This document shows, piece by piece, positions 2,629-51,423 of a stretch of DNA of 64,000 bases. The notes under the pieces are model-generated. The model did no database searches. It was not told the DNA's origin and saw only the letters and a program-made list of their open reading frames with translations. Location: assembly GCA_016210115.1 (NCBI GenBank), contig JACQUW010000159.1, forward strand, positions 1-64,000. The letters run 5' to 3'. Source of the stretch: Deltaproteobacteria bacterium. GTDB lineage: Bacteria; Desulfobacterota; Binatia; UBA9968. The first letter of the stretch is position 1. Each line of letters opens with the position of its first letter. Both the position numbers and the translations under genes were made by a program.

Positions 2629-3969
2629 CTACGGCCTCTGTTCTTCGTAGAGTTTTCTGATCAGCTTTGCCTTCATCTCAAAGCGAGGCAGCGTCCCCGG
2701 GGGAACCAGCTCAACCGCAGGGCTGAAAATCAGCTTATTTTTAAGATTTTCTTCCACGTACCTTTTCAGGGCCTCAAGATTATCCACCGCGGTGCCGTGC
2801 TCAACCTGGATTTTAAGCGGCGGCTCAACCCGCGGTCCAGGCTGGTCGAGGAGTATCTGGATTTCGCCGGTGGTATTGGGCCGCATCTGGGACACCACGT
2901 CCTTGATGGCGGAGGGAAAAACGTTGACCCCCCTCAGGATCAGCATATCATCGGTGCGGCCGACAATGCGCATACGAAATCCGCTCCGGCGACACCGGCA
3001 CGGTTTATTCCATACCACCACCCGATCACGGGAGCGAAAGCGCAACAATGGGACGCAATCCCGTTCTATATGGGTAAAAACGATCTCGCCTTCGACTCCA
3101 TCCTCGATCGGGAGCGACTCGCCGCTGTCAGGATCGATAATCTCTGGAATGACGAAGTCCCCGGCCAAAAAGTGGTTCCCGGTGCGCTGGGGGCACTCCG
3201 CCGCATAAACTGTGACAACGTCGGCGTTCCCAGTTGCCTCGGTAACGACGGCTCCCCAAAGCTCTTCGATCCTCTCCCGGATTCCCGGCACTCCCCCCCC
3301 GGGCTCGGCGCCGCAGAGGATTCGTTTTATGCCGAGGGTCTTGGGATCGATCCCCATTTTTTCTCGGGCATAGTCGGCGAGATAAGATGCGTAGGAAGGC
3401 GTGCAGGTGATGATATCCGCTTTGAGATCCTGGATTGTGGCAATCAGGCGATCAGACGCTCCCGTCCCTACCGGCACAAAAGTCGCGCCGATCGCTTCGA
3501 TCGCGTTGGCAAGAGGCAGGCCGCCCACAAACATGCCGATACCGAATCCCATAATCACGATGCTTGTCGGCCTCACGCCCTCAGACCAGTAGCAGCGAGC
3601 GACGATCTCGATCCAGCGCTTTCGGTCGCGCTCGGTAATGCCGACGTAGCTTGGTCTTCCGGTCGTACCCGACGAAGAATGGAATCGAATTACTTGATCC
3701 AACGGGACCGCTGCATGCTCTCCGAGCGGAGGCTTCTTGAGCTGGCTTTCCCTCAGTTCATCTTTCGTCGTGAACGGAAGCCGCGCGATGTCGGCGACAG
3801 TTCTGATGTCGCTCGCCGCAATTCCTGCCTCCTTTAACTTTCTTCGGTAAAAAGGCGAGTTTTTCTTAAGGTAGTCGATCTGGGTGCGGAGCTTCCGCGC
3901 CTGAAGCTGCTGCAGGCGCGGTAGAGGCATGGTCTCCACCTTCTCGTTCCAGTATGGTGAGTATCTCAT
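2629..3969 (-). CDS. Phenylacetate-CoA ligase family enzyme (PaaK-like)
   Basis: 446 residues, the usual PaaK length. The adenylate-forming P-loop SSSGTTGRPS is at about 98-107, with the family's C-terminal GRTDDMLILRG hinge. It should activate a carboxylic acid to its CoA thioester with ATP. Placed between the HyuA/HyuB-type carboxylase genes and the thiolase, it fits activation of a beta-keto acid, as benzoylacetate-CoA ligase does in acetophenone degradation. It starts 10 bases after the hyuB stop, with no strong ribosome binding site, suggesting coupling. The aryl or alkyl preference cannot be read from sequence. Confidence 0.88.
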   Translation of the reverse strand: MRYSPYWNEKVETMPLPRLQQLQARKLRTQIDYLKKNSPFYRRKLKEAGIAASDIRTVADIARLPFTTKDELRESQLKKPPLGEHAAVPLDQVIRFHSSSGTTGRPSYVGITERDRKRWIEIVARCYWSEGVRPTSIVIMGFGIGMFVGGLPLANAIEAIGATFVPVGTGASDRLIATIQDLKADIITCTPSYASYLADYAREKMGIDPKTLGIKRILCGAEPGGGVPGIRERIEELWGAVVTEATGNADVVTVYAAECPQRTGNHFLAGDFVIPEIIDPDSGESLPIEDGVEGEIVFTHIERDCVPLLRFRSRDRVVVWNKPCRCRRSGFRMRIVGRTDDMLILRGVNVFPSAIKDVVSQMRPNTTGEIQILLDQPGPRVEPPLKIQVEHGTAVDNLEALKRYVEENLKNKLIFSPAVELVPPGTLPRFEMKAKLIRKLYEEQRP

Positions 3970-7950: not shown

Positions 7951-10260
7951 TTAAATCCAATCCGTCCGCGCTGTTTTCTTGTTCTTAAGGGCCTGTAAGA
8001 CTCTTTCCGGAGTGAGCGGCAGCTCTTTGATCCTCACGCCTACTGCATCGTAAATCGCATTGGCGATTGCCGGAGCGGTCCCGACCAACCCACACTCTCC
8101 CACGCCTTTGGCGCCAAACGGACCAGTGGGCTCGCCGGTCTCGACGATGATAGGAATGACTTTTGGGACATCGAGAGCGCTGGGGATGCGATAGTCCACC
8201 ATGGATGGGTTCGTAACCTTCCCGTCATCCAGGATCATCTCCTCCATCAAGGCATATCCCACCCCTTGAACAAATCCTCCCTGAATTTGTCCTTCGACCA
8301 CCGCAGGATTGATAGCTTTACCCACATCATGCGCGGCGACCGAGTTGACAATTCTCACATGCCCCGTTTCCGTGTCCACCTCCACTTCGACCATGTGAAC
8401 GCCGAATATGTAGGCGGTCATGGCGCCGAAAGGGTAGCCCATCACCACCGCCCTCTTGGCATCAAAGGGCGGCCCCTCCACCATAAATGAAGCGCTGCCG
8501 AGAATCGGCCCCTGTTTGGCCCAAAGGCTCATCCCGGCGATATCTCGAAAAGGTATTTTCCTTTCGGGCGAGCCGGCGACAAAAACGTAACCTTCTCTGG
8601 TCTCAAGATCCTGAGGATTCGCCTCCAGGCAATCCGCAGCCAGCGAAATAACCTGTTTCTTCGCCTCGCGCGCGGCCATGCGCACGGCATTGCCGGCTGT
8701 GTAGACCGTCCGGCTTGCCGTGGTCGCCCAATTATAAGGAGTCGTCTCGCTGTCCGAGGTCACGATTGAAACGTGCTCGTACGGAACCCCCAACTCCTCG
8801 GCCGCCATTTGACTGAGCGTCGTATCGGATCCTTGACCGATGTCCATGGCTCCGGTGAGCAGAACCACAGTTCCGTCTTCATTCATCTTCACTGTGGCGG
8901 CGGAGGAGACGATGCCGCTGATGTGGTTAATCGACGCCATACCTCGGCCGCGGTTCTTCTCTTTGGGCTTTCCCCAGCCGATCGCATCGCCCGCGCGCTT
9001 GAGGCACTCTTTATATCCGACGCTCCCGTAAGGATTGCCCCCTAAAGCCCTATCGCCGGTTTCAACGCCGTTCAGAGCCCGTATCTCCAGCGGGTCGATT
9101 CCCAACTGGTGCGCGATCTCGTCTAGCTGCGACTCTGAAGCGAAGGTCCCTTGCGGGTTGCCAAAACCGCGAAACGCTCCGCACTTGATTTTGTTAGTGT
9201 AAACGCAAAGCCCCTCGATCTTGACGTTTGGGATGCGATATGGCCCACGGGACATCATCGCCCCAAACCCGGCTATTCCCGGCCCATCGTCCGCATAGGC
9301 GCCCGTGTCAAATACGATCCGCACCTCTTTGGCGACGATATGTCCATCCTTCTTCGCCCCGGTTTTAATGTTGATAACGGCCGGATGACGCGGCCGGAGC
9401 GAGGTAAATTCTTCGTCTCTCTCAAGAATAATCTTGACCGGGCGAAACGCCACCTGGCTTAGAGCAACGCAGACCGGCTGCACAGTTGCCTCCACCTTGC
9501 CCCCAAAAGCTCCGCCGACCCTGGTTCCTATAACGCGGATCTTGCTCATGGGAAGCCCGAGCGACTGGTGGATCCGCGCCTGTGTAACAAAGACCGATTG
9601 CGTGGTGGTCCAGACGGTGACTTTTCCCGAGATATCCACAGAGGCAATGGCGCCGCAGGCTTCCATGTAGCACTGGTGCACCATCTGCGTCCTGAAAGTA
9701 TCTTCCAGCACGAGATCTGCCTGCTTGAACCCCAGCTCAACATCGCCTTCCAGAAACGTGGTGTGGGAACAAAGGTTTCCCCGCCAGACCGGATTAAAAA
9801 CTTTTGCGTAGCCGGCAAAATCGCCGTGGATAATCGGCGCGCCCTCCTCCATCGCCAGTAACGGATCGAAAACGGCCGGCAGCTCTTCGTATTCGACCGA
9901 AATCAGTTCCAGCGCATCCTTCGCAGTATTTTCATCAACCGCCGCCACCGCGGCAACGGGCTCACCGACATGCCGCACAACGCCTTGCGCGAGAATCGGC
10001 TCATCCAGAATGAACGCTCCCATCCTGGCTTGTGGAACATCTGAGCCGGTTAGAACGGCTTTTACGCCGGGAAGACGTTTGGCTCTCGAACAATCAATCT
10101 GCAGAATCCTGGCGTGAGCGTATGGACTGCGCAAGATTTTGCCGCAAAGCATCCCGGGGAGAACAAGGTCATCAATATAGATCGCCCTTCCCGTAGCCTT
10201 CTCCAGGGTGTCAGTTTTAGGAAGGCTTTTCCCTACGACAGAAAACTCCATTTGATTCAC
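7951..10260 (-). CDS. Molybdenum hydroxylase large subunit (xanthine dehydrogenase/CoxL family)
   Basis: 769 residues. It begins with the conserved VVGKSLPKTDTLEKATG segment, has GAFRGFG near residue 360 and GAKGVGECG near 721, where the glutamate is the conserved active-site base. The active-site loop is not the AYxCSFR loop of true form I CO dehydrogenase, so hydroxylation or reductive dehydroxylation of an organic ring (as in xanthine, nicotinate, isoquinoline or 4-hydroxybenzoyl-CoA enzymes) is more likely. The medium and small subunits are immediately upstream, giving a complete enzyme in order M-S-L. Confidence 0.9.
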   Translation of the reverse strand: MNQMEFSVVGKSLPKTDTLEKATGRAIYIDDLVLPGMLCGKILRSPYAHARILQIDCSRAKRLPGVKAVLTGSDVPQARMGAFILDEPILAQGVVRHVGEPVAAVAAVDENTAKDALELISVEYEELPAVFDPLLAMEEGAPIIHGDFAGYAKVFNPVWRGNLCSHTTFLEGDVELGFKQADLVLEDTFRTQMVHQCYMEACGAIASVDISGKVTVWTTTQSVFVTQARIHQSLGLPMSKIRVIGTRVGGAFGGKVEATVQPVCVALSQVAFRPVKIILERDEEFTSLRPRHPAVINIKTGAKKDGHIVAKEVRIVFDTGAYADDGPGIAGFGAMMSRGPYRIPNVKIEGLCVYTNKIKCGAFRGFGNPQGTFASESQLDEIAHQLGIDPLEIRALNGVETGDRALGGNPYGSVGYKECLKRAGDAIGWGKPKEKNRGRGMASINHISGIVSSAATVKMNEDGTVVLLTGAMDIGQGSDTTLSQMAAEELGVPYEHVSIVTSDSETTPYNWATTASRTVYTAGNAVRMAAREAKKQVISLAADCLEANPQDLETREGYVFVAGSPERKIPFRDIAGMSLWAKQGPILGSASFMVEGPPFDAKRAVVMGYPFGAMTAYIFGVHMVEVEVDTETGHVRIVNSVAAHDVGKAINPAVVEGQIQGGFVQGVGYALMEEMILDDGKVTNPSMVDYRIPSALDVPKVIPIIVETGEPTGPFGAKGVGECGLVGTAPAIANAIYDAVGVRIKELPLTPERVLQALKNKKTARTDWI

Positions 10261-10271
10261 TCCGATGCGCT

Positions 10272-10733
10272 CTAGCCGCGATCCTCACTTGCCGCCAGAA
10301 TCGCCTCAACGATCTTTGTGTAACCTGTGCAGCGGCAGAGATTGCCCGCTATCGAGGCCCTGACCTCGTCCTCAGTGGGCCTGGGGTTCTCATCCAAAAG
10401 AGCCTTTCCAACCATGAGCATTCCGGGAATGCAAAAGCCGCATTGAATCGCCGCGTGCTTGATGAATGACTCCTGGAGCGGGTGAAGGTGCGAGCCCTGC
10501 GCCAATCCCTCGATCGTAGTCACCTTTCGACCACGCGCGTCCATCGCCAAAGCCAGGCAAGAGCGAATTGGCCAGCCGTCCAAAAGAACGGTACATACGC
10601 CGCACTCCCCGATTCCGCAACCATCTTTTGTTCCGGTCAGGGCGAGATCTCGCCGAATCACCTCCAGCAGGGTTTGGTTCGGCTTTATCTCCAGCTCCAC
10701 AGGTTCGCTGTTAATCTCGAAGGCTAGTCGCAT
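10272..10733 (-). CDS. Molybdenum hydroxylase [2Fe-2S] small subunit (CoxS-like)
   Basis: 153 residues, the typical length. The plant-type cluster ligands are Cys39, Cys44, Cys47 and Cys59; the second cluster uses Cys98, Cys101, Cys133 and Cys135 (QCGFC ... CRCTGY). The usual Thr after QCGFC is Ile here. It passes electrons from the Mo site to FAD. AGGAAGCG precedes the ATG, which lies 2 bases after the medium-subunit stop. Confidence 0.93.
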   Translation of the reverse strand: MRLAFEINSEPVELEIKPNQTLLEVIRRDLALTGTKDGCGIGECGVCTVLLDGWPIRSCLALAMDARGRKVTTIEGLAQGSHLHPLQESFIKHAAIQCGFCIPGMLMVGKALLDENPRPTEDEVRASIAGNLCRCTGYTKIVEAILAASEDRG

Positions 10734-10735
10734 CT

Positions 10736-11608
10736 CTAATCGCTTCCTCCGGCTCTTTTCCAGGCCACTTTCAGAGCCCGTTGAACACAGACCCGCGCCA
10801 TCTCTCTTTTATACTCTTCGGATCCTCGTCCATCAGTCATCGGTTGAGCCTCGGCCGCGGCCATAGACGCCGATTGCTCGATGATCTCCGGAGAAAAATC
10901 CTTTCCCTCAAGGAAGGTGGCCGCCTCTTTGGCTAAGATGGGAAAAGGGCCCGCGGAGCCGAGCACAACACGAGCGGCCGTACAACCAGAGCTCGCATCC
11001 CGTCTCACACACGCGGCCACTTGTACAACTGCCATATCCGTTGCGGTGCGTTTAAATTTCAGATAGGCGCCACCGCTTCCCCGCGGAGGGAGAGGAACCG
11101 CGATCTCGGCCAAGATCTCATCGGGCTCGAGAGATGTCGTGTAATAGTCGGCGCAAAATTCGTCCACGGAGAGGTCTCGTTTTCCTGCAGCGCTCACGAG
11201 CTTAAGACGCGCGTTTAAACACAGAAGCGCAGGAGCCAAATCGCCGTTCGGGTCGGCGTGACAAAGGTTTCCTCCAACCGTCCCCATGTTGCGAATCGCG
11301 GGGGAGCCGATCTCTGACGCAGCCTCGGCCAAGAGAGTGAACCGCTCCCGAATCAATGGCTCGGTGGCAATTCTTCTGTGAATCACCAAGGGGCCGAATC
11401 TTAGGCCCTTGCGCTCCTGAAAAGAGAGTTTGTCGAGGCCCGGGATCGCCTTGATATTTACCAGAACTGCGGGACGGACGAGCCGGTTTTTCATCATGGC
11501 TATAAGAGACACTCCGCCCGCAATCAACTTGGCCTCTCCGCCATGCTGTTTGAGTAGCTGCGAAGCCCGGCGCAGGCTCTTAGGCTCCATATAGTTAAAC
11601 TCGTGCAC
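10736..11608 (-). CDS. Molybdenum hydroxylase FAD-binding medium subunit (CoxM-like)
   Basis: 290 residues. FAD-binding motifs are AGGVSLIAMM near 31-40 and TVGGNLCHADPNGDLAPALL near 109-128, both typical of CoxM/XdhB. GTG start (GTGCACGAGTTT), with AGGAGGGAAGG upstream. First gene of the M-S-L trio, 21 bases after the binding-protein gene. It hands electrons to an external acceptor. Confidence 0.92.
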   Translation of the reverse strand: MHEFNYMEPKSLRRASQLLKQHGGEAKLIAGGVSLIAMMKNRLVRPAVLVNIKAIPGLDKLSFQERKGLRFGPLVIHRRIATEPLIRERFTLLAEAASEIGSPAIRNMGTVGGNLCHADPNGDLAPALLCLNARLKLVSAAGKRDLSVDEFCADYYTTSLEPDEILAEIAVPLPPRGSGGAYLKFKRTATDMAVVQVAACVRRDASSGCTAARVVLGSAGPFPILAKEAATFLEGKDFSPEIIEQSASMAAAEAQPMTDGRGSEEYKREMARVCVQRALKVAWKRAGGSD

Positions 11609-15082: not shown

Positions 15083-15247
15083 CTATCCCGCTAGAGGCAC
15101 CATCTCGCCCTTGTAGTGCACAACGGCACACTGAGGACAAAATTGGGGAGGCTTTTTCCCCTTACCAGTTTCAGCGTAGAGAATATAGCCGCACCGATTA
15201 CACCGATACCGTTTCTTTTGCTCGCTGTCTTTCTTTTTTGTCGCCAC
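15083..15247 (-). CDS. 54-residue zinc-ribbon protein overlapping the UbiD gene
   Basis: GTG start at 15247, stop TAG at 15083-15085. The lysine-rich N-terminus MATKKKDSEQKKRYR is followed by Cys16-x2-Cys19 (CNRCGY) and Cys37-x2-Cys40 (CPQC), a rubredoxin-like zinc ribbon, ending in HYKGEMVPLAG. AAGGGGGAAGG precedes the GTG. The start lies 50 bases inside the 3' end of the UbiD gene in another frame. Bacterial hydroxyarylate decarboxylases have a small zinc-ribbon D subunit next to their UbiD-type C subunit (BsdBCD, VdcBCD); this protein may be an analogue. Rubredoxin-type electron transfer is the alternative. Confidence 0.75.
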   Translation of the reverse strand: MATKKKDSEQKKRYRCNRCGYILYAETGKGKKPPQFCPQCAVVHYKGEMVPLAG

Positions 15248-16640
15248 GGTAGATTCCTTCCCCCTTCCAGCCGTCTATATAGTCGGACAAACGAACCGTA
15301 TCAGTCGGGAAATAACACGGGTTATGAACCATCTGCGACATTGGCTTGTCCATCCCGACGGGTTTGGTCGCATCAAATCCCATCTTTGTCACCACCCCGT
15401 CAGTCGAGGTTGGATCCAGCGGGCAACCCAGACTATCGGGAATCACAATAGTGTCCTTGATCCCCCTGCACCTGGTGGTAAAGGCCCATTCCACTTGCAC
15501 GTGATTGCGGGCATCGATGTCCTCATCCACAACGATCACATTCTTCACCCCTTGATAAGCAAGGACGGCGGACGCGACCTGCTTTCCCTGACCGGGATAT
15601 CTTTTTTTAATGCGCACCACACAATTAAAGTAGGTACAGCCGCCCTCTGTCAGGTAAACGTCGAGAATGCTCTCCTCGGGAAATACGCGGGCCACGACTT
15701 TATGAACCTCCGCCATATTGGTGATCAACATCGGCTGGTTCTCGTCCGGAGGCGGGCCGGTGATGATATCGTGATAGATCGGCTGATCCCGGTGGGTGAT
15801 AGCTTTTACATTGAAAATCGGCGCCAGCCGCTCGTCGCCGTAGTAGCCGGTAAATTCAACAAAGGGAGCCTCCAATTTCCGCTCGTGCGGCGGAATCTCT
15901 CCTTCCAGGATAATCTCTGCGGTCGCCGGGACATCCAGGTCGATGGTCTCGCATTTGACCATATCGATCGCCTTGCCGCGCTGCGCTCCGGCAAAAGAAA
16001 ACTCGTCCTCCTCCAAAGGCATACTGGTGGAAGCAGCCATCATGCAGTAGGGATCGACGCCGATCGCCACCGCCATCGGACAGGCTTCCCCTTGTTCCCA
16101 GTAGCGCATGATGATGTGCCAAAGATTGAACGGGCTCATCCACAACCCGGTCTGGTTCTTCTCATGGATAAAGAGCCGATGGACTGAGGCGTTGCGGGTC
16201 CTAGTCTCCGGATGCTGTACGATACAGCAGGTTGCGTCAATGTACCAGCCCCGGTCACGCTCGGCATGCCAGGTAATCGGGAACTTGTTAAGGTCTACTT
16301 TTCTTCCCTTGATGATGTTTTCCTTGCAAGGCCCGCTGCTCACGATTCGGGGAGAAAACTCTTTGAGCCGCTCCGAGCGCTTCACGTAGTCTTTTACGAA
16401 CGCCTCCGGCGTGGTGTTCAGCCCGAGACAAACCCTGCGCTGGGTTCCGTAGACACCCGACGCGACGGGTATGCCGTAGCCCTTTACGTTTTCAAACAGC
16501 AGCGCAGGCCCTCTTTCCTCGATCGACTTCTTGGTTACCAGGGCCGTTTCCAGATAGCGATCCACGGGTCGCCGCACGCGCTTCAGCTCGTTCTTCTCCT
16601 CGAGGAAACCAAGAAATTCCCTAAAGTCATTGAATTGCAT
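15198..16640 (-). CDS. UbiD family prenyl-FMN-dependent decarboxylase
   Basis: 480 residues, typical of UbiD/Fdc/AroY-type enzymes. The acidic active-site stretch lies near residues 243-265 (LEGEIPP ... LEAPFVEFTGYYG). The motif is EAPFVEF where the three other UbiD proteins of this window have EGPFGEW, so it belongs to another subgroup. These enzymes decarboxylate or carboxylate aromatic or alpha,beta-unsaturated acids with prenylated FMN; no UbiX prenyltransferase gene is visible here. GGGGTAGACG precedes the ATG. It sits between the flavoenzyme gene and the overlapping zinc-ribbon gene. Confidence 0.9.
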   Translation of the reverse strand: MQFNDFREFLGFLEEKNELKRVRRPVDRYLETALVTKKSIEERGPALLFENVKGYGIPVASGVYGTQRRVCLGLNTTPEAFVKDYVKRSERLKEFSPRIVSSGPCKENIIKGRKVDLNKFPITWHAERDRGWYIDATCCIVQHPETRTRNASVHRLFIHEKNQTGLWMSPFNLWHIIMRYWEQGEACPMAVAIGVDPYCMMAASTSMPLEEDEFSFAGAQRGKAIDMVKCETIDLDVPATAEIILEGEIPPHERKLEAPFVEFTGYYGDERLAPIFNVKAITHRDQPIYHDIITGPPPDENQPMLITNMAEVHKVVARVFPEESILDVYLTEGGCTYFNCVVRIKKRYPGQGKQVASAVLAYQGVKNVIVVDEDIDARNHVQVEWAFTTRCRGIKDTIVIPDSLGCPLDPTSTDGVVTKMGFDATKPVGMDKPMSQMVHNPCYFPTDTVRLSDYIDGWKGEGIYRGDKKERQRAKETVSV

Positions 16641-16658: not shown

Positions 16659-18605
16659 TTAGATTCTCGCGCCGAGTTTATAGCCTTCATGAATGGCATT
16701 GTGCATCGATCTGGGCCGCACCGCGTCTCCGATGACGTAGACCTCGTCAGCGCTGAACTCGAGGAGCGAGAGCAGCTCCTGCTGCGGCTGGCGAGGTCCT
16801 GCCTGAACGAACGTGTCCGCCTCGATAAAAATCTGCTTTCCTTCTTTGTTTCTGATCTGAATTCCTTTTTCGCTGATTTTCTCGATCCGGCTTGCGACGT
16901 GAATGGGGATCGAGAACTCTTTGATCCAGTTGTCGTGCCGCCATTTCCACGTGGGAATGACGTCCCAGCCGATTCTCGCCCCTTCCTCGATCACAACCAC
17001 GTTTTTCCCTCTGGCCGCCAAGCTCTCCGCCGTGACCAGGCCCATTCGGTCGCCGCCGAGCACCGCCACCTTTTGTCCAACGGGCGCTCCATTCTCGAGA
17101 ACGTCAGAGGCCTTGACCACTTTGGCTGCGCCTTTGATGACCCATGGCATCTTGGGAATGTCAGCTCCCGTCGCCACAACGACCACATCGGGAGTCTCCG
17201 CCTCGCACAGCTTCGGCGTGACCTCCGTATTGAGTTTTAGCGTAACACCGTATTTTTCGATCTGAGTCAGGTAGTGGTCGACCAGTTTGAGAAAAACCTC
17301 CCCGCCGCCGATTTCGCTTGAGGCTGAAATCAATTGGCCCCCAGCGCTTGCTTTCCTGTCATAGACCGAAACGTTGTGTCCTCTTCTGGCAGCGGTAATA
17401 GCGCATTCCAAGCCTCCGGGTCCAGCGCCAACGACCATAACCTTCTTTTTCCCGGCGGCCGGTGTAATCTGGTACTCGGGCTCGTACTCATGCCCCAGGC
17501 GTGGATTGACGGCGCATATATATGGAAGATTACGGAACATCCGGGAGAGACAAAGCAGCCCTCCTACGCAGGGTCTGATCTCGCGGGTGCGCTCTTGCTC
17601 CATTTTGTGCACGAGCTCAGGATCCGCCAGCAAAGGACGGCACACTTCCCAAAAATCGATCAGGCCTTCGGCTGCCGCTTTTTCAGCCATAGACGGATCA
17701 CCAAACCGGGGCCCGAACGCGACGGGAATGTTCACGGCCTCCTTCGCGGCTTTCGCCAGATGAAGCCAGTGATCCGTTGGAAGATCCCGCCCGAGGGCTC
17801 CGGTGCGGGACTCATGCCAGCCGACCACCAGGCTGATGCAGTCCGCCCCCGCTCTCTCGGCCATTCTCATAAACTCCAGGCATTCCTCCGGCGTATTGCC
17901 ACCGTACTCGTCCATCAATTCGACGCCGTTCAATCTGACGATCAGCGGTTTATCATCGCCGATGGTTTCTTTGATGCTCTGGATCAGCTCGACCATGAAT
18001 CTTCCGCGGTTCTCGACCGAACCGCCATACTCGTCGGTTCGCTGATTGATGAATTTCGAATTGAAGTCGGAAAGGAGATATCCCATGAAGCTGGTTACCT
18101 CCACGCCGCGAAACCCCGCCTCTATCGCGCGCCTCGCGGCCTGGGCGTGTTCATGAATGCACTCCTTGATCTGCGCCTTCGTCATCTCTCTCGGGGGCCT
18201 GAAGTGCTTCAGCGTCTGCTTGACGCTCGAAGGCTGAACGCAGTAGTCGAGCTCTATGCCGCCGTAGCGGCCGCCGTGGAGGATTTGCTGGATCGAAATC
18301 CCGCCCTGCCGATTAATCATCTCGGCCACCTTCGCAAGCGACGGGATGTACTTATCATCGTAGATGGCCAACTGGCGAAGATAGGCCTTCCCCTCCGCTT
18401 TGCGATCCGGGTACGCCCCCTGGTTTGTGATGATTCCGCAGCCTGTCTGCGAGATCACCTCCATCCGCGCCACTTCTCTTTCTGACGTGTACCCGTCCAG
18501 GGTATTGAAGTTAGAAACTCAGCAGGCGGCGTACTTGATTCGGTTGCGCGTCTCTAACCGGCCCAGGGTTCCCTTTTTAAAAAGCTCTGGAAATTTGATC
18601 GCCAT
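16659..18605 (-). CDS. Old Yellow Enzyme/2,4-dienoyl-CoA reductase-like flavoenzyme with probable selenocysteine
   Basis: 648 residues if the in-frame TGA at 18519-18521 is read as selenocysteine 29. The start ATG at 18605 has CGGAGG 6 bases upstream; MAIKFPELFKKGTLGRLETR is the normal N-terminus of this family. After RNRIKYAAC comes the TGA, then VSNFNTLDGYTSERE, with frame and homology uninterrupted. Aligning RNRI with the NRI block of YqjM-type Old Yellow Enzymes puts the TGA on the flavin-contacting cysteine. A TIM barrel fills residues to about 370, and an FAD/NAD Rossmann segment (VMVVGAGPGGLE) begins near 388. The iron-sulfur region is CVGGLLC then x11-Cys, one ligand short of the usual four. 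First gene of the operon; a likely role is reduction of an enoate or enoyl-CoA ring. Starting at GTG 18473 would remove the N-terminal strand and active-site loop. Confidence 0.85.
18479..18517 (-). promoter_or_regulatory. Candidate bacterial SECIS stem-loop
   Basis: One base after the TGA the mRNA can fold: TTTCT (18517-18513) pairs with AGAAA (18483-18479), and TACCC (18504-18500) pairs with GGGTA (18494-18490) around the loop TGGAC. The apical loop begins 19 bases after the TGA and has G at its second and third positions. Bacterial SECIS elements lie immediately downstream of the UGA with a small loop carrying an early G, so position and shape fit. Confidence 0.75.
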
Positions 18606-18912
18606 GAGATCCTCCGAAGGGACTTAAAAATTTCAAAGCCACGGCAGCAATATTTATGCCAACGATGGCATGTTTTTCAGCTCAACAAAAACACCCAACC
18701 GCCGTGTTTGTTCACCAGCCCCGCTTCTGCGCTTGGAAAAAATGAGACTAGATTCTCAAATTTCGGAAGCCGATGCGATGCTGCCATTTTCTTGGTTGCT
18801 TTGTCAAGCGAAAAAAAAGGCCTTACAGCGCGCAAATTCGGTCCGCTAAAAATTTTTCTCTTGCAAGATGCAAAACAAAAGTAATAAGAAAGCGTGGTGT
18901 GAGGTAAGCTCT
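18606..18912. promoter_or_regulatory. Divergent intergenic region with palindrome
   Basis: About 300 AT-rich bases separate the minus-strand flavoenzyme operon from the plus-strand UbiD gene, so promoters for both must lie here. ATGCCA-ACGA-TGGCAT at 18656-18671 is an inverted repeat suited to a dimeric regulator, next to an AT-rich CATAAATATT-like minus-strand -10 candidate. A TTGACA word on the minus strand near 18810 has no good partner. No coding frame is supported. Confidence 0.5.
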
Positions 18913-20343
18913 ATGCAGAATCTCAGGACATTCTTAAGCGGCGTGGAAAAACTTGGAGAACTTAAGATCGTCAGACAAGCCGACTGGAATCTTGAAATCG
19001 GAGCCATCACTGAAATCTCCGGGTCGGACCCGAACCCGCCGGCGCTGCTCTTTGACGAGATAAAGGATTACCCGGCGGGATACCGTATTTTTACGAACAT
19101 GTTTCAAACCCAGTCCCGCACCGCGTTGGCTTTGGGTTTGTCCACGGAGCTTCGAGGTGTCCCGCTGGTCCAGGCTGTGCGGGAGATGCTTCACGTCTCT
19201 TCGCCTCTGCCTCCGGTGATAAGAAAGGATGCGCCCGTCCAGGAGAATCTTTTCCTGGAAAAAGAAGTGAACGTGCTTCGCTTTCCGGCCCCGTGGCTTC
19301 ATCGCCAGGACGGCGGACGGTATCTCGGCACCGCCGACGCGGTGATTACTGCCGATCCGGATGCCGGTTGGGTGAATCTGGCGACGGCGCGGGTGCAAAT
19401 TCTTGGCGAGAACAGAGTGTCGCTCTACATCTCTCCCGGAAAGCAAACACGATTGATTGCCCAGAAATACTGGGAACAAGGCAAATCATGTCCGGTCGCG
19501 GTTGTGTGCGGCATTGATCCGGTCCTTTTTGCGGTCTCGGGGCTAGGGCTTCCCTGGGGCGTGTCGGAATACGATTTTGCCGGTCAGATCCAGAAGGCTC
19601 CCGTCGAGGTGATCAAGGGCGTTACGACCGGACTCCCCATTCCAGCGTCGGCGGAGATTGTTCTCGAAGGAGAGATTCCGCCACCGGATGTGGAGGCGGA
19701 GATCGAGGGGCCGTTCGGCGAATGGACAGGGTATTATGCTTCGGGCACGCGTCCCGCGCCGGTCATCCGGGTTAAAGCCGTCTATCACCGCAACGATCCG
19801 ATCCTGACGGTCATGCCTGATTTCAAGTGCTATCCCCTTTCGAGCTATGTGCATCTGATTTTTTCTGCGGCGCAGGTCTGGAATGAAATCGAGCAGTGCG
19901 GCGTTACCGACATTACCGGAGTCTGGCTGGCGGAATGGGGGCTGAGATTTTTCATCGTGATCGCTTTGAAGCAGCGGTACGGAGGCCACGCGCGCCAGGC
20001 TGCGCATATTACACTGGGAGCCAGAGAAGGCGGGTACCTGGGGCGCTTTGTGGTGCTCGTTGACGACGATATCGATCCGTCCAACATGGCGGATGTTCTC
20101 TGGGCCGTTTCCAGTCGTTGCGATCCCCAAACCTCCATCGAGATCGTCACCGGTTGCTGGAGCAGCCCGCTCGATCCCAGGCTCCCTCCATTCAAGAGGG
20201 CCGCGGGTGACTTCGTCAACTCGCGCGCGATCATTGATGCCTGCCGGCCCTTTTCGTGGCGCAATGAGTTTCCCAAAGTGCATTCCATTGACCCGGAGTT
20301 TAGGCGGCAGATGAGAGAAAAATGGGCGAACGTTTTTAAATAA
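18913..20343 (+). CDS. UbiD family decarboxylase
   Basis: 476 residues from ATG 18913, chosen because GTGAGGTAAG precedes it; an ATG 15 codons earlier lacks a ribosome binding site. N-terminus MQNLRTFLSGVEKLGEL is typical. The acidic active-site region is LEGEIPPPDVEAEIEGPFGE near residues 251-270. Prenyl-FMN-dependent decarboxylation of an aromatic or unsaturated acid is expected. It is followed by a bicupin gene and an NMT1-like binding-protein gene, a grouping seen twice in this region, suggesting linked uptake, decarboxylation and further conversion of one substrate class. Confidence 0.9.
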   Translation: MQNLRTFLSGVEKLGELKIVRQADWNLEIGAITEISGSDPNPPALLFDEIKDYPAGYRIFTNMFQTQSRTALALGLSTELRGVPLVQAVREMLHVSSPLPPVIRKDAPVQENLFLEKEVNVLRFPAPWLHRQDGGRYLGTADAVITADPDAGWVNLATARVQILGENRVSLYISPGKQTRLIAQKYWEQGKSCPVAVVCGIDPVLFAVSGLGLPWGVSEYDFAGQIQKAPVEVIKGVTTGLPIPASAEIVLEGEIPPPDVEAEIEGPFGEWTGYYASGTRPAPVIRVKAVYHRNDPILTVMPDFKCYPLSSYVHLIFSAAQVWNEIEQCGVTDITGVWLAEWGLRFFIVIALKQRYGGHARQAAHITLGAREGGYLGRFVVLVDDDIDPSNMADVLWAVSSRCDPQTSIEIVTGCWSSPLDPRLPPFKRAAGDFVNSRAIIDACRPFSWRNEFPKVHSIDPEFRRQMREKWANVFK

Positions 20344-22836: not shown

Positions 22837-24294
22837 TCAGTCTATCCGGTCTCGCCAGCGCTTCAGGACGCTTTGTTTATATTCCGCTGAGAAGGCGTTT
22901 ACAGCCGGAAACTCCTCTTTCCATTCGTATGGCCTGCAAGCGTCTATGATCATTCGGTTGCTGCTGTAGTTCCGGGATGCTCTCTGGGCAGGGCTCAGCG
23001 AGGGATCGCTGCGGGTCGTCCATACGCCCTGAACGATGTCGGTGGCGCGGCCTACCTCGCACCGTGTGGCGATCGCCCAAATCACCTCCTGCGGATTCGT
23101 AATATCGACATCATCATCAACGACCACTACGAACTTCCCCCCCAATGCCCCCCCTCGGCACGAAGCCGCCGCCATGCCGGTTTGCTTTGCATGCCCCGCG
23201 TAAAGTTGCTTGATAGCAACGACCAGAAAGGGTCCCCCTGCTCCACCACCGCCGACAAATGACCAGACGCCCGTGATCCCGGGAATGCCCGCCTTCTCCA
23301 GTTGGTCCCATACGATGCCGCATCCTACTGGAATCGCGTAAGGAAAGGGCGCGGGCGGCTTTAGCGGTGGAAGCCCGAGCATGATCGGATCCTTTCTATA
23401 ATAAATCGCCCTGACTTGCATAAGGGGAACTTCCCCTACCGCGCTCGGGGTAAAATACCCCAACCATTCACCGAAGGGACCCTCGCGCGGCCATGCCACC
23501 TCGCCCGGAGGCGGAAGTTCCCCTTCTACGGCAATCTCGGCGTCCGCCGGAATCGGCAGCCCGGTGAACTCGCCCTTCACCACCCGCACCGGACGTCCCT
23601 TGAGCCATCCGGCGAAATCGTACTCCGACAGCGTAAATGGCGGAGCCGAGCCGGCAGCGAGCATCAGCGCCGGATCGTGGCCTAAGCAAACGACAACCGG
23701 ACAGCTTCTACCGTTGGCGTGGTACTTCTCCATATGGATGCGCCCGTGCTTGCCCTTATTGGGCTTCACGCTCATCGTATTGTGGCTTTGAACCATGCAG
23801 CGGTAGGCGCCGATGTTGACCACGTTTGTTTCAGGATCTCTCGTGATCACTCCAGCGCCTGTGCCGATGTATCGGCCCCCGTCCAACTCGTGCCAGCGGG
23901 GAGAGGGAAACTTCCAGAGATCAACGTCCTTATCGATCATCTGCAACTCGAAAACCGCGCCGTCTCGAACTTCAACCGGCGGGACCGCTTTAAAACTCGC
24001 CAGCTTTTTTCGCCACAGATCGGACACAGCGAGGGCTTCACCGTCTCCCGGAAGGCCAAGCAGGAGAGCGGTGCGTCGTACTGACCCGAAAGGGTTGGTA
24101 AAAATTCGAAATCCTACAGGATATCCCTTGACCCTGTCGAACAACAACGCGTGACCCTTCTTTTCCGCTACCGCTTCCGTAAGAGCGCCGATTTCTAAAT
24201 CCCAGTCGGCTTGTTCGAGAATTCTCAGCTCGCCCCAGCGATCGACGATTTCGATGAAGTCACGAAGATCTTCGAATTCGCGCTCCCCTTGCAT
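22837..24294 (-). CDS. UbiD family decarboxylase
   Basis: 485 residues from ATG 24294, which has AAGGAGG 6 bases upstream; the frame is open further but without a better start. The N-terminus MQGEREFEDLRDFIEIVDRW is typical, and the acidic active-site region VEGELPPPGEV ... EGPFGEWLGYF lies near residues 236-262. A glycine-rich insertion (FVGGGGAGGPFLV) is unusual next to the other copies. It is transcribed with, and just downstream of, the NMT1-like binding-protein gene at 24326. Confidence 0.9.
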   Translation of the reverse strand: MQGEREFEDLRDFIEIVDRWGELRILEQADWDLEIGALTEAVAEKKGHALLFDRVKGYPVGFRIFTNPFGSVRRTALLLGLPGDGEALAVSDLWRKKLASFKAVPPVEVRDGAVFELQMIDKDVDLWKFPSPRWHELDGGRYIGTGAGVITRDPETNVVNIGAYRCMVQSHNTMSVKPNKGKHGRIHMEKYHANGRSCPVVVCLGHDPALMLAAGSAPPFTLSEYDFAGWLKGRPVRVVKGEFTGLPIPADAEIAVEGELPPPGEVAWPREGPFGEWLGYFTPSAVGEVPLMQVRAIYYRKDPIMLGLPPLKPPAPFPYAIPVGCGIVWDQLEKAGIPGITGVWSFVGGGGAGGPFLVVAIKQLYAGHAKQTGMAAASCRGGALGGKFVVVVDDDVDITNPQEVIWAIATRCEVGRATDIVQGVWTTRSDPSLSPAQRASRNYSSNRMIIDACRPYEWKEEFPAVNAFSAEYKQSVLKRWRDRID

Positions 24295-24325
24295 TACAGG
24301 CCTCCTTGGAAATCTTGCGGGCGGA

Positions 24326-25336
24326 TCACTCTTTGGCTGCCGGATACTGCTTGCCCAGTTCCTCAAAAAAACCGGACTTTTCCAGTTCCAGCACAAAACG
24401 GGGTTCAATGAAGCCGTCAGGGTTGCCTTCCCGTACCCCCGTTCGCGTGCGTGACAGAATCTTCAGCATGGATCTGGCAGTACTGACGGAGGGAAGCGGC
24501 CTGCTGAGAATCAGCTTCCGGTACCGGCCGTAAATCGAATCAAGAATTTCCAGATCATCCGTCCGCGTGTATTTCTTAAGCACAGCGAGACTGGCTTCGC
24601 GATTGCTCTTGAAGAAGTAGGTCCCCTCAATCCACGTTTTGAGAAACTTGAGAGTCGTCTCTGGATTTTTGACAACGTAAGCTCGCCGCGAAAGGACACT
24701 TGCCGTCGAGATCTCAATCGCGAGACTGGAGAAATCGATCAGCAGTTTAAAACCCATTCTCGCGGCAGCCGCGGCCTGGGCTCCGATCAGCATCGTGCCA
24801 TGAATCGTGCCTGTCCGAAGGCCGCTGATCCGGGCGCCCAGGTCTCCAACGGCCAAGACCGTAACGTCGCGCTCGGACATACCGTTAAGCCGTAGAGCTT
24901 CACGGAGGGCAGCGTCGGTCAGAGCTCCGAGGGCGCTGATTCCTATGACCTTCCCGCGCAAATCCTGGGTTCCGGTGATGTTCGGATGGACGACCAGGTA
25001 GTGATCCAAACGATTCATGCTGGAACCGATGAGCGCGGTGTCGGCGCCTCCGAGATAAGCTTCGAGAGACGGCATTGCCGAATGAATGACATACTGGACA
25101 CTCCCGCCCAGCATGGCCATCACGCTTCGCGGCCCGCCCGGAATGTAGACCAGGCTGGGATCCAATCCATACTTTTCGAAAAGCCCTTTCTCTTTCGCCA
25201 CCCAAACCGGCGCCTGCGTTCCGGATATGGAGCCATAGCTTACATTAATCTTCTCTAGCGGTGAAACTGCCGCTCCCGATAGAGAGTGACAGACCGTGAT
25301 TAAAAGAACGGTACCAATAATGCTGAAGCCTTTCAT
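24326..25336 (-). CDS. NMT1/SsuA-like ABC substrate-binding protein
   Basis: 336 residues. Signal peptide MKGFSIIGTVLLITVCHSLS with cleavage near 24, then INVSYGSISGTQAPVWVAKE, the usual opening of this type II binding-protein family. Followed 31 bases later by a UbiD gene on the same strand, so it probably delivers the UbiD substrate or its precursor. No permease lies beside it; divergent from the related gene at 25567. Confidence 0.88.
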   Translation of the reverse strand: MKGFSIIGTVLLITVCHSLSGAAVSPLEKINVSYGSISGTQAPVWVAKEKGLFEKYGLDPSLVYIPGGPRSVMAMLGGSVQYVIHSAMPSLEAYLGGADTALIGSSMNRLDHYLVVHPNITGTQDLRGKVIGISALGALTDAALREALRLNGMSERDVTVLAVGDLGARISGLRTGTIHGTMLIGAQAAAAARMGFKLLIDFSSLAIEISTASVLSRRAYVVKNPETTLKFLKTWIEGTYFFKSNREASLAVLKKYTRTDDLEILDSIYGRYRKLILSRPLPSVSTARSMLKILSRTRTGVREGNPDGFIEPRFVLELEKSGFFEELGKQYPAAKE

Positions 25337-49935: not shown

Positions 49936-51423
49936 TTATCCTTCGATCACCTTTCTCCACTTCGCCCTGACCTTCTCTTTCAGCTCCGGGCTGGATTCGG
50001 CGACCGGCGGAAAATCTTTCATCCACTCAAAGGGCCGGCAGGCGTCGATCACCGCTCTGGAGTTGAATCCTTTCTTTCCGGGCTGGATTCGCGGATCGAG
50101 GGGACCGCTCCAGCAGCGCCGGAGAATCTCGATGGATTCCACGGGATCCGAACGGGTAGACAGGGCCCACAGAACATCAAACGTGTTGGTAGGATCGATG
50201 TCTTCATCCACTACGATCACATAGCGGCCCAGATAGGCGCCCGCATGCACCTGCGAGGCCACAAGCATAGCTTGACGTGCATGGCCCGGATAGCGCTGCT
50301 TAATAGAAATGATGTTCAGAAGTCTTCCTCCTCCAGCCTCATGGCACCAGACTCCCTTCACATCCGGCACGCCCGCCTTCTCAACCTGCTCCCAAATGAG
50401 CGCTGCTTTTACAAAACACTTTGCCAAGGAGTAGTCTGAAGGCGGTCTTCCCGGACGCGCGCACGTCAGAATAGGATCGTTCCGATGATAGATATTTTGC
50501 ACGCGAACCACCGGCTCGGGCCGGGTAGAGCTGGCGTAGTAACCCGTCCACTCACCGAAGGGTCCCTCTGCCTTAACGTCATTAGGATCCATGAATCCTT
50601 CGATAACGATCTCGGCATCCGCAGGAAAAGGAAGCCCTGTCGCTTTGCCCTCTATGACCTCTATCGGGCTTCCTTTGAGACCGCTTGCGTAGTCGAACTC
50701 GGAGACGCCGTAGTCAATCTCGTTCCCCGAGACCATAAAAAGGACCGGGTCCTGCCCTACCGAAATCACAACCGGGCACGGCTTTCCCTGCTCGAAATAT
50801 TTCTGCCGCTGAATGCGCCCGTGCTTTCCAGGAGAAATATAAAGCCCCATGCTTTTCTCATCGTGGACCATTCCTCTGTAGGCGCCGAAGTTTACCCAAT
50901 TCTCTTCAGGGTCCCTTGTAATAACAAGACAGGCGGTGCCAATGAAGCGGCCGCCGTCAAGCTCGTGGATGAGCGGAACCGGGAACTTCAAGAGATTGAC
51001 ATCGTTTCCCGAAAGGACGTTTTCCAAAACCGGCCCCTTCTTCACCACTTTTGACGGGATCGGCTTATGGGCGGCAAGCTTCTGCCGGAACGCGCGTACC
51101 AGGTCTAGCCCGGATAGATCCAGGGGCAGGCCCAAGTTGAGAGCCATTCTTTTGAATGAGGCGTTTTGTGCAAAGAGCGCGCGGTAACCTTTGGGATAGT
51201 CTTTGATATTGTCGAAAAGAACCGCCGGCACCGAACCCTTGCTCTCTCTGGCAACAAGCTCTGAGAGGGTTCCCATTTCAAGATTCCAGTCGGCCCCGTC
51301 AATTTTTTTCAGCTCCCCGAAGCTGTCCACGATTTCCAGCCATTCGCGGAGATCTTTGTAGGCGGGAGTTTTACCGGATTTGATATCTTCCTCAGCGATC
51401 TTCCTTGCCTCTAAAGCAGTCAT
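49936..51423 (-). CDS. UbiD family decarboxylase
   Basis: 495 residues. AAAGGAGC precedes the ATG. It has a 23-residue N-terminal extension before DLREWLEIVDSFGEL. The acidic active-site region is VIEGFMDPNDVKAEGPFGEW, near residues 279-298. Fourth UbiD in the window and closest in motif to the copies at 18913 and 22837. No UbiX is seen. Its upstream neighbour is an iron-type ABC ATPase, about 110 bases away, so it may have its own promoter. Confidence 0.9.
   Translation of the reverse strand: MTALEARKIAEEDIKSGKTPAYKDLREWLEIVDSFGELKKIDGADWNLEMGTLSELVARESKGSVPAVLFDNIKDYPKGYRALFAQNASFKRMALNLGLPLDLSGLDLVRAFRQKLAAHKPIPSKVVKKGPVLENVLSGNDVNLLKFPVPLIHELDGGRFIGTACLVITRDPEENWVNFGAYRGMVHDEKSMGLYISPGKHGRIQRQKYFEQGKPCPVVISVGQDPVLFMVSGNEIDYGVSEFDYASGLKGSPIEVIEGKATGLPFPADAEIVIEGFMDPNDVKAEGPFGEWTGYYASSTRPEPVVRVQNIYHRNDPILTCARPGRPPSDYSLAKCFVKAALIWEQVEKAGVPDVKGVWCHEAGGGRLLNIISIKQRYPGHARQAMLVASQVHAGAYLGRYVIVVDEDIDPTNTFDVLWALSTRSDPVESIEILRRCWSGPLDPRIQPGKKGFNSRAVIDACRPFEWMKDFPPVAESSPELKEKVRAKWRKVIEG

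Follow-up and report, generated by a model that had tools for sequence, protein, structure and literature searches.

A probable selenoprotein of the Old Yellow Enzyme superfamily with selenocysteine predicted at the flavin edge

Gene organization at the locus

The window analyzed here is the whole 64,000-nucleotide stretch of contig JACQUW010000159.1 from the Deltaproteobacteria bacterium assembly GCA_016210115.1 (GTDB lineage Desulfobacterota; Binatia; UBA9968). Its minus strand carries a gene for a reductase of the Old Yellow Enzyme (OYE) type with a TGA codon close to its start. An earlier sequence-only reading had described this frame as a long one that begins behind a strong Shine-Dalgarno sequence and is interrupted once by a TGA following a cysteine, and a script re-check bore this out: the ATG lies at 18605-18603, the single in-frame TGA (18521-18519) comes directly after Cys28, and 619 sense codons separate it from the TAA. 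The Pfam Oxidored_FMN match begins ahead of codon 29 and extends across it. The features of the gene and of its same-strand surroundings are as follows.

16659..18605, minus strand: OYE-type reductase coding sequence, 648 residues with selenocysteine (Sec) read at 29, TAA stop at 16661-16659 (script-checked, Pfam)
18611..18615, minus strand: Shine-Dalgarno GGAGG, 5 nt ahead of the ATG
18519..18521, minus strand: UGA codon 29, read as selenocysteine, the same TGA occurring in three genomes
18479..18517, minus strand: SECIS-like stem-loop; upper stem 18504-18490, apical loop UGGAC 18499-18495, lower stem ending at 18517 and 18479
17583..18587, minus strand: Oxidored_FMN (OYE barrel) domain, residues 7-341 (Pfam)
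17514..17570, minus strand: Fe-S linker with Cys346, Cys352 and Cys364, and Gly at the fourth-cysteine position 349
16683..17447, minus strand: Pyr_redox_2 (FAD/NAD(P)) domain, residues 387-641 (Pfam)
15198..16640, minus strand: UbiD-family decarboxylase, 18 bases downstream of the reductase gene (TIGR00148, over its cut-off)
7951..11608, minus strand: three-gene molybdenum hydroxylase resembling 4-hydroxybenzoyl-CoA reductase or xanthine dehydrogenase (best models under cut-off)
2629..3969, minus strand: PaaK-like aryl-CoA ligase far along the same-strand run (models under cut-off)

The same-strand downstream run also includes a fused ABC transporter, a sugar-type binding protein, a thiolase, and hydantoinase A/B-type subunits related to caprolactamase and acetophenone carboxylase; most models for these neighbors, other than that of UbiD, scored under their cut-offs. 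The downstream genes may be transcribed as one operon. Four UbiD-family decarboxylase genes occur in the window as a whole (15198-16640, 18868-20343, 22837-24408 and 49936-51423).

For the OYE-type protein itself, the best 25 of 71 NCBIfam matches were all under their own cut-offs, the top model being the mycofactocin-system OYE with 404.6 bits against a cut-off of 793.15. The linker at 17514-17570 (residues 346-364) is a peculiarity of its own, in that an OYE-type linker offers only three cysteine ligands. Residue 349 is Gly in 11 of the 15 clade rows, namely in the Sec row, in nine Ser rows and in the Cys homologue L031; L047 has Asp there, and L048-L050 have Cys.

Distribution of the TGA codon among relatives

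The 20 close rows of the alignment have TGA (3), Cys (6) or Ser (11) at the codon-29 column. The two further TGA genes belong to genomes of the same family, namely Deltaproteobacteria bacterium NC_groundwater_356 (G019; locus L042, with L028 judged from identical hits to be the same contig stretch) and G007 (L093), with a homologue 84% identical to the window protein. The nearest TGA-free row, L031 from bacterium CPR1 (78% identity), has TGC for Cys, and Cys also occupies the column in L047-L051. The eleven Ser loci use TCG (nine loci) or TCC (two loci) and come from genomes that carry the names Deltaproteobacteria, Acidobacteria, Rokubacteria, Anaerolineales, Planctomycetota or simply bacterium. 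At greater distance, 24 rows have KYAATE or KYASTE, with one residue fewer at the column. Before all counts L044 (33% over 81 residues) was excluded, and repeats were left uncounted where they came from the same genomes (L023-L025 and L030 from those of L033-L035 and L043; L089-L092 from those of L039, L032, L037 and L041).

In a maximum-likelihood tree of 44 rows the three TGA rows group together in a single clade (96/88) whose sister is the Cys row L031 (99/99), and both together fall inside a Cys and Sec group with a support of 85/96 that is under the strict threshold. A single change from Cys to Sec would be the simplest reading of column and tree. The occurrence of the TGA in one and the same column in three genomes, where the nearest TGA-free relatives have Cys, is beyond chance; an in-frame UGA that aligns with Cys and is kept in independent genomes is what is looked for in a selenoprotein. 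The presence of Ser in a sister group shows that a thiol or selenol at residue 29 is dispensable in some relatives.

Further TGA genes were found neither in 148 genomes of the class nor in 149 genomes of the phylum of CPR1, nor among the matches listed from 395 phylum genomes, of which 30 loci were read at the column, so that within the genomes searched the TGA form is confined to one clade. Two observations on the homologous loci are recorded here for their own sake. The reading frame changes inside the homologue near position 3731 of L042/L104 and near 6653 of L043, either by assembly error or in reality, and in bacterium CPR1 the Cys homologue lies in a 996-codon open reading frame (L105, 1-2988, minus strand) that stays open far upstream of it, as a fusion or a mere open frame.

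Selenocysteine machinery

The source assembly (8.35 Mb in 431 contigs, 99% complete, 8.9% contamination) holds the selenocysteine genes for which the sequence-only reading had proposed a search. Contig C216 carries adjacent selA (605.7 bits) and selB (390.2 bits) genes, adjoined by a selD with one TGA of its own, while a tRNA-Sec with anticodon UCA (76.7 bits) lies on contig C32 and an fdhA with one TGA on contig C103. A second selB-like stretch (L009, G000:C366:143-1426; 193.8 bits, under the family cut-off) has one internal TAG and is perhaps a remnant or a contaminant.

There is some chance that contamination has brought together sel contigs and a window from different organisms, a doubt that loses importance because two further TGA genomes, G019 and G007, both carry selB together with TGA-containing selD. 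Each of these has two selD genes (L078 and L081 in G019, L076 and L080 in G007), every one with a TGA; a motif search caught the selD TGA in two of five selD loci, and the TGA counts for selD rest on a separate analysis. The machinery is nevertheless no predictor of Sec, since nine of the 11 Ser genomes carry selB. Overall, selB was found in 26 of 31 genome entries, equivalent to 21 of 26 distinct genomes once the duplicate entries judged by identical hits (G097, G100, G101, G102 and G109) are merged, these counts leaving out the five genomes of L047-L051.

A conserved hairpin after the TGA

The SECIS-shaped stem-loop that had been noticed directly after the TGA was recovered, and it is common to all three TGA genes. 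Its upper hairpin is TACCC-UGGAC-GGGUA, with the loop 19 nt past the TGA. According to the available text of a recent review, a bacterial SECIS element has its loop 16-37 nt away, a G in the first two loop bases, a stem of 4-16 and an energy of at most -7.5 (PMC13188914). When this rule was applied to a 45-nt fold, all three TGA genes passed with 5 or 6 stem pairs and with the common loop UGGAC 19 nt after the UGA, and none of 17 Cys or Ser relatives did. This simpler 45-nt version was chosen after the outcome of a first script was known, in which the window hairpin failed, L042 passed, another hairpin was selected for L093, and 311 of 1500 random TGAs passed.

The window hairpin alone is not beyond chance, as 265 of 1989 TGAs in the window (13%) pass the same rule. 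Its folding energy is ordinary (z -0.49, and -1.86 and -0.25 for the other two TGA genes), and covariation counts were not significant: 119 of 500 shuffles reach the two compensatory pairs found in the lower stem. No Rfam family matched the window at gathering scores, and the matches around the gene were at chance level. Between the window gene and L042, by comparison, third positions differ in 47% of 253 codons overall, and the longest unchanged run is codons 32-38, which make up the upper hairpin; between the window gene and L093 (108 codons) it is codons 31-38. The loops of the fdhA hairpins lie 18 nt after the UGA in the source genome and in CPR1, and 19 nt in G007. It is by its conservation and not by its stability that the hairpin supports the selenocysteine case.

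Position of residue 29 in the enzyme

By sequence, the best match among solved structures is 2-naphthoyl-CoA reductase (NCR, PDB 6qkg; 458.7 bits, 38% identity), followed by 2,4-dienoyl-CoA reductase (FadH/DCR, PDB 1ps9; 282.5 bits), and YqjM scores 112.5 bits, or 113.7 with the barrel alone. A structure predicted from 31 rows with Cys in place of Sec has a mean pLDDT of 89.7 and matches NCR with a TM score of 0.93; trimethylamine dehydrogenase (TMADH) and histamine dehydrogenase are among its next fold matches. Residue 29 aligns with Val38 of NCR, His26 of DCR, Cys26 of YqjM and Cys30 of TMADH, positions that were counted by hand on printed alignments, the NCR count adjoining an alignment gap. 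The proposal that the TGA sits where YqjM has its redox-tuning cysteine therefore agrees with the alignment. In the available text on NCR, the hydride-donating N5 of FMN is described as near DCR His26, with Val38 taking its place in NCR (PMC6502838), and residue 29 is accordingly placed, by homology, at the N5/C6 edge of the flavin.

NCR has the catalytic residues Tyr197, His284 and Tyr82, a Glu341 that lowers the FMN potential, and a Trp459 that blocks the NADPH site. NCR residues Y197, H284, Y82, R245, N247 and E341 correspond to Y176, H264, Y75, R224, N226 and E320 of the window protein, and all six are kept in 15 of 15 clade rows of alignment A2.

Probable substrate and role of selenium

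The gene surroundings in the other genomes resemble those in the window. Ahead of its TGA gene, G007 has a pair of CoA-transferase genes and a pair of UbiD genes along with a PaaK-like ligase and an amidohydrolase. In G019 the TGA gene is likewise preceded by the PaaK-like ligase and the amidohydrolase, together with the final part of a UbiD gene; UbiD and PaaK-like ligase genes are near all three TGA genes. A search with the window UbiD proteins also placed UbiD close to three Ser genes (L033, L039 and L043); none of the six Cys genes had one nearby within the contig stretches covered. A scan of neighbors in the Cys stretches L105, L107 and L110 showed AMP-binding ligases near the Cys gene in the latter two. 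Neighbors of the UbiD and aryl-CoA-ligase-like kinds suggest the reduction of an aromatic or cyclic acyl-CoA, and an aryl- or enoyl-CoA type substrate seems somewhat better than an even bet.

The locus very likely encodes an OYE-superfamily selenoprotein of the NCR/DCR type whose Sec lies at the flavin edge, and the enzyme probably works like the NCR and DCR reductases. In the mechanism that we propose, SelB and tRNA-Sec would decode the UGA at codon 29, aided by the hairpin that follows, and Sec29, beside Cys28, would lie against the N5/C6 edge of FMN. A selenolate there would tune the flavin potential and could act as a redox or proton partner that responds fast and reversibly. Electrons from NAD(P)H or a ferredoxin would arrive via FAD and the Fe-S site, FMN N5 would pass a hydride to an aromatic or cyclic unsaturated acyl-CoA, and Tyr176, His264 and Tyr75 would form the proton relay. 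We give even chances to a non-covalent tuning role of selenium. It is unlikely, though conceivable, that Sec29 takes part in hydride transfer to an aromatic acyl-CoA through a bond to FMN or through direct redox exchange with it, either as a 6-selenocysteinyl-FMN or as a flavin-selenium pair in which Cys28 and Sec29 form a reversible bond. To our knowledge, no seleno-flavin catalytic center of this kind has been described.

The strictly covalent variant, in which Sec29 is bonded to FMN C6 as a 6-seleno-flavin, appears more doubtful still. Cys30 of TMADH is bonded to FMN C6 as 6-S-cysteinyl-FMN, a cofactor reportedly also named for histamine dehydrogenase in the title of a study, and this variant draws on the alignment of residue 29 with that cysteine and on the appearance of both dehydrogenases among the fold matches. 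Against it, the protein is closer in sequence and fold to NCR and DCR, which have Val and His at the column, and the bond would be impossible for the Ser relatives.

Alternative readings of the TGA codon

An ordinary stop at codon 29 would mean that translation starts at GTG 18473 (604 residues), that the gene is a decaying pseudogene, or that the TGA is an assembly error. An open reading frame from GTG 18473 does exist; its product, though, would be without the conserved NRIKYAAC strand, and the identical TGA in three separate genomes speaks against assembly error, which had been named beforehand as a possible refutation. Between the window gene and L042, the 226 codons after the TGA show 87 silent and 30 replacement differences, which points to strong purifying selection downstream. 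Ahead of the TGA, residues 21-28 are identical in the three TGA genes with silent changes in three codons, and residues 4-20 vary (47, 59 and 82% for the three gene pairs, against a mean of 56% in 21 intact pairs of similar distance), so that residues 4-28 evolve like those of the intact pairs. We therefore regard an ordinary stop as very improbable. Decoding of the UGA as another amino acid, for instance as Cys by an unusual tRNA, would fit the Cys of the nearest relatives but is given slightly less credence again in view of the canonical tRNA-Sec, selA-selB-selD and the TGA-containing fdhA and selD in the assembly.

We thus return to selenocysteine as the predicted product of codon 29, a reading in which we have very high confidence. 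It had been put forward from the window letters and is supported by the sel machinery, the TGA column in three genomes and the Cys of the nearest relatives, including the one at 78% identity.

Significance

The statement that no characterized selenium-containing enzyme of the OYE type was known holds within the literature covered. No OYE or Oxidored_FMN family appears in Table 1 of the 2026 review, which comprises 119 prokaryotic selenoprotein families (PMC13188914), and no OYE-type selenoprotein was found in the open-access literature searched (with passages of PMC13365417, PMC8395237, PMC12093976, PMC5500553, PMC13101529, PMC12016498 and PMC11574389 among the sources). The present case would bring an OYE-type family into the known prokaryotic selenoproteins and would tie selenium to a probable aromatic-acid metabolism in uncultured groundwater bacteria. 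The flavin-edge residue shapes OYE chemistry and is a target of mutagenesis, as PDB titles for C25 variants of XenA and TsER indicate, and the natural series of Sec, Cys and Ser forms of one enzyme would offer a test of the effect of selenium beside a flavin.

Comparison with known systems

With the catalogued prokaryotic selenoproteins, as presented in the available text of the review, the window gene has in common the UGA, the hairpin, the Cys homologues and the sel genes, whereas the flavoprotein entries there, e.g., CoA-disulfide reductase and type III sulfide quinone reductase, belong to other families (PMC13188914).

YqjM-class OYEs (YqjM, XenA, TsOYE) have Cys26 at the aligned column where Sec is predicted here, and YqjM Cys26 is listed, in the available part of the source, among the residues that contact FMN and substrate (PMC4002455). 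These enzymes are single-domain proteins, in contrast to the extra FAD domain here, and the His164/His167 pair of YqjM is Thr/Met by alignment. Assignment to the YqjM class was therefore rejected on the extra domain, the His pair that is not kept and the far lower score; of the earlier comparison with YqjM-type enzymes the Cys26 column stands, but the whole enzyme has three domains and is nearest to NCR and DCR.

NCR, an OYE-family enzyme classed as a type III aryl-CoA reductase (PMC6502838), shares the same three-domain fold and resembles the window system in the UbiD genes near all three TGA genes. It differs in having Val38 at the FMN instead of Sec29, four cysteines for a [4Fe-4S] cluster where Gly349 takes one place here, and Trp459 instead of Phe438. 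Since the four-cysteine cluster and the Trp459 and Val38 features are not found, the enzyme was not classed as NCR. DCR has the three-domain plan in common with the window enzyme and carries F424 at the NCR Trp459 position, like Phe438 here, an arrangement by which NAD(P)H may reach the FAD; it has His26 at the column in place of Sec29 and is without the Glu that NCR and the window protein both have.
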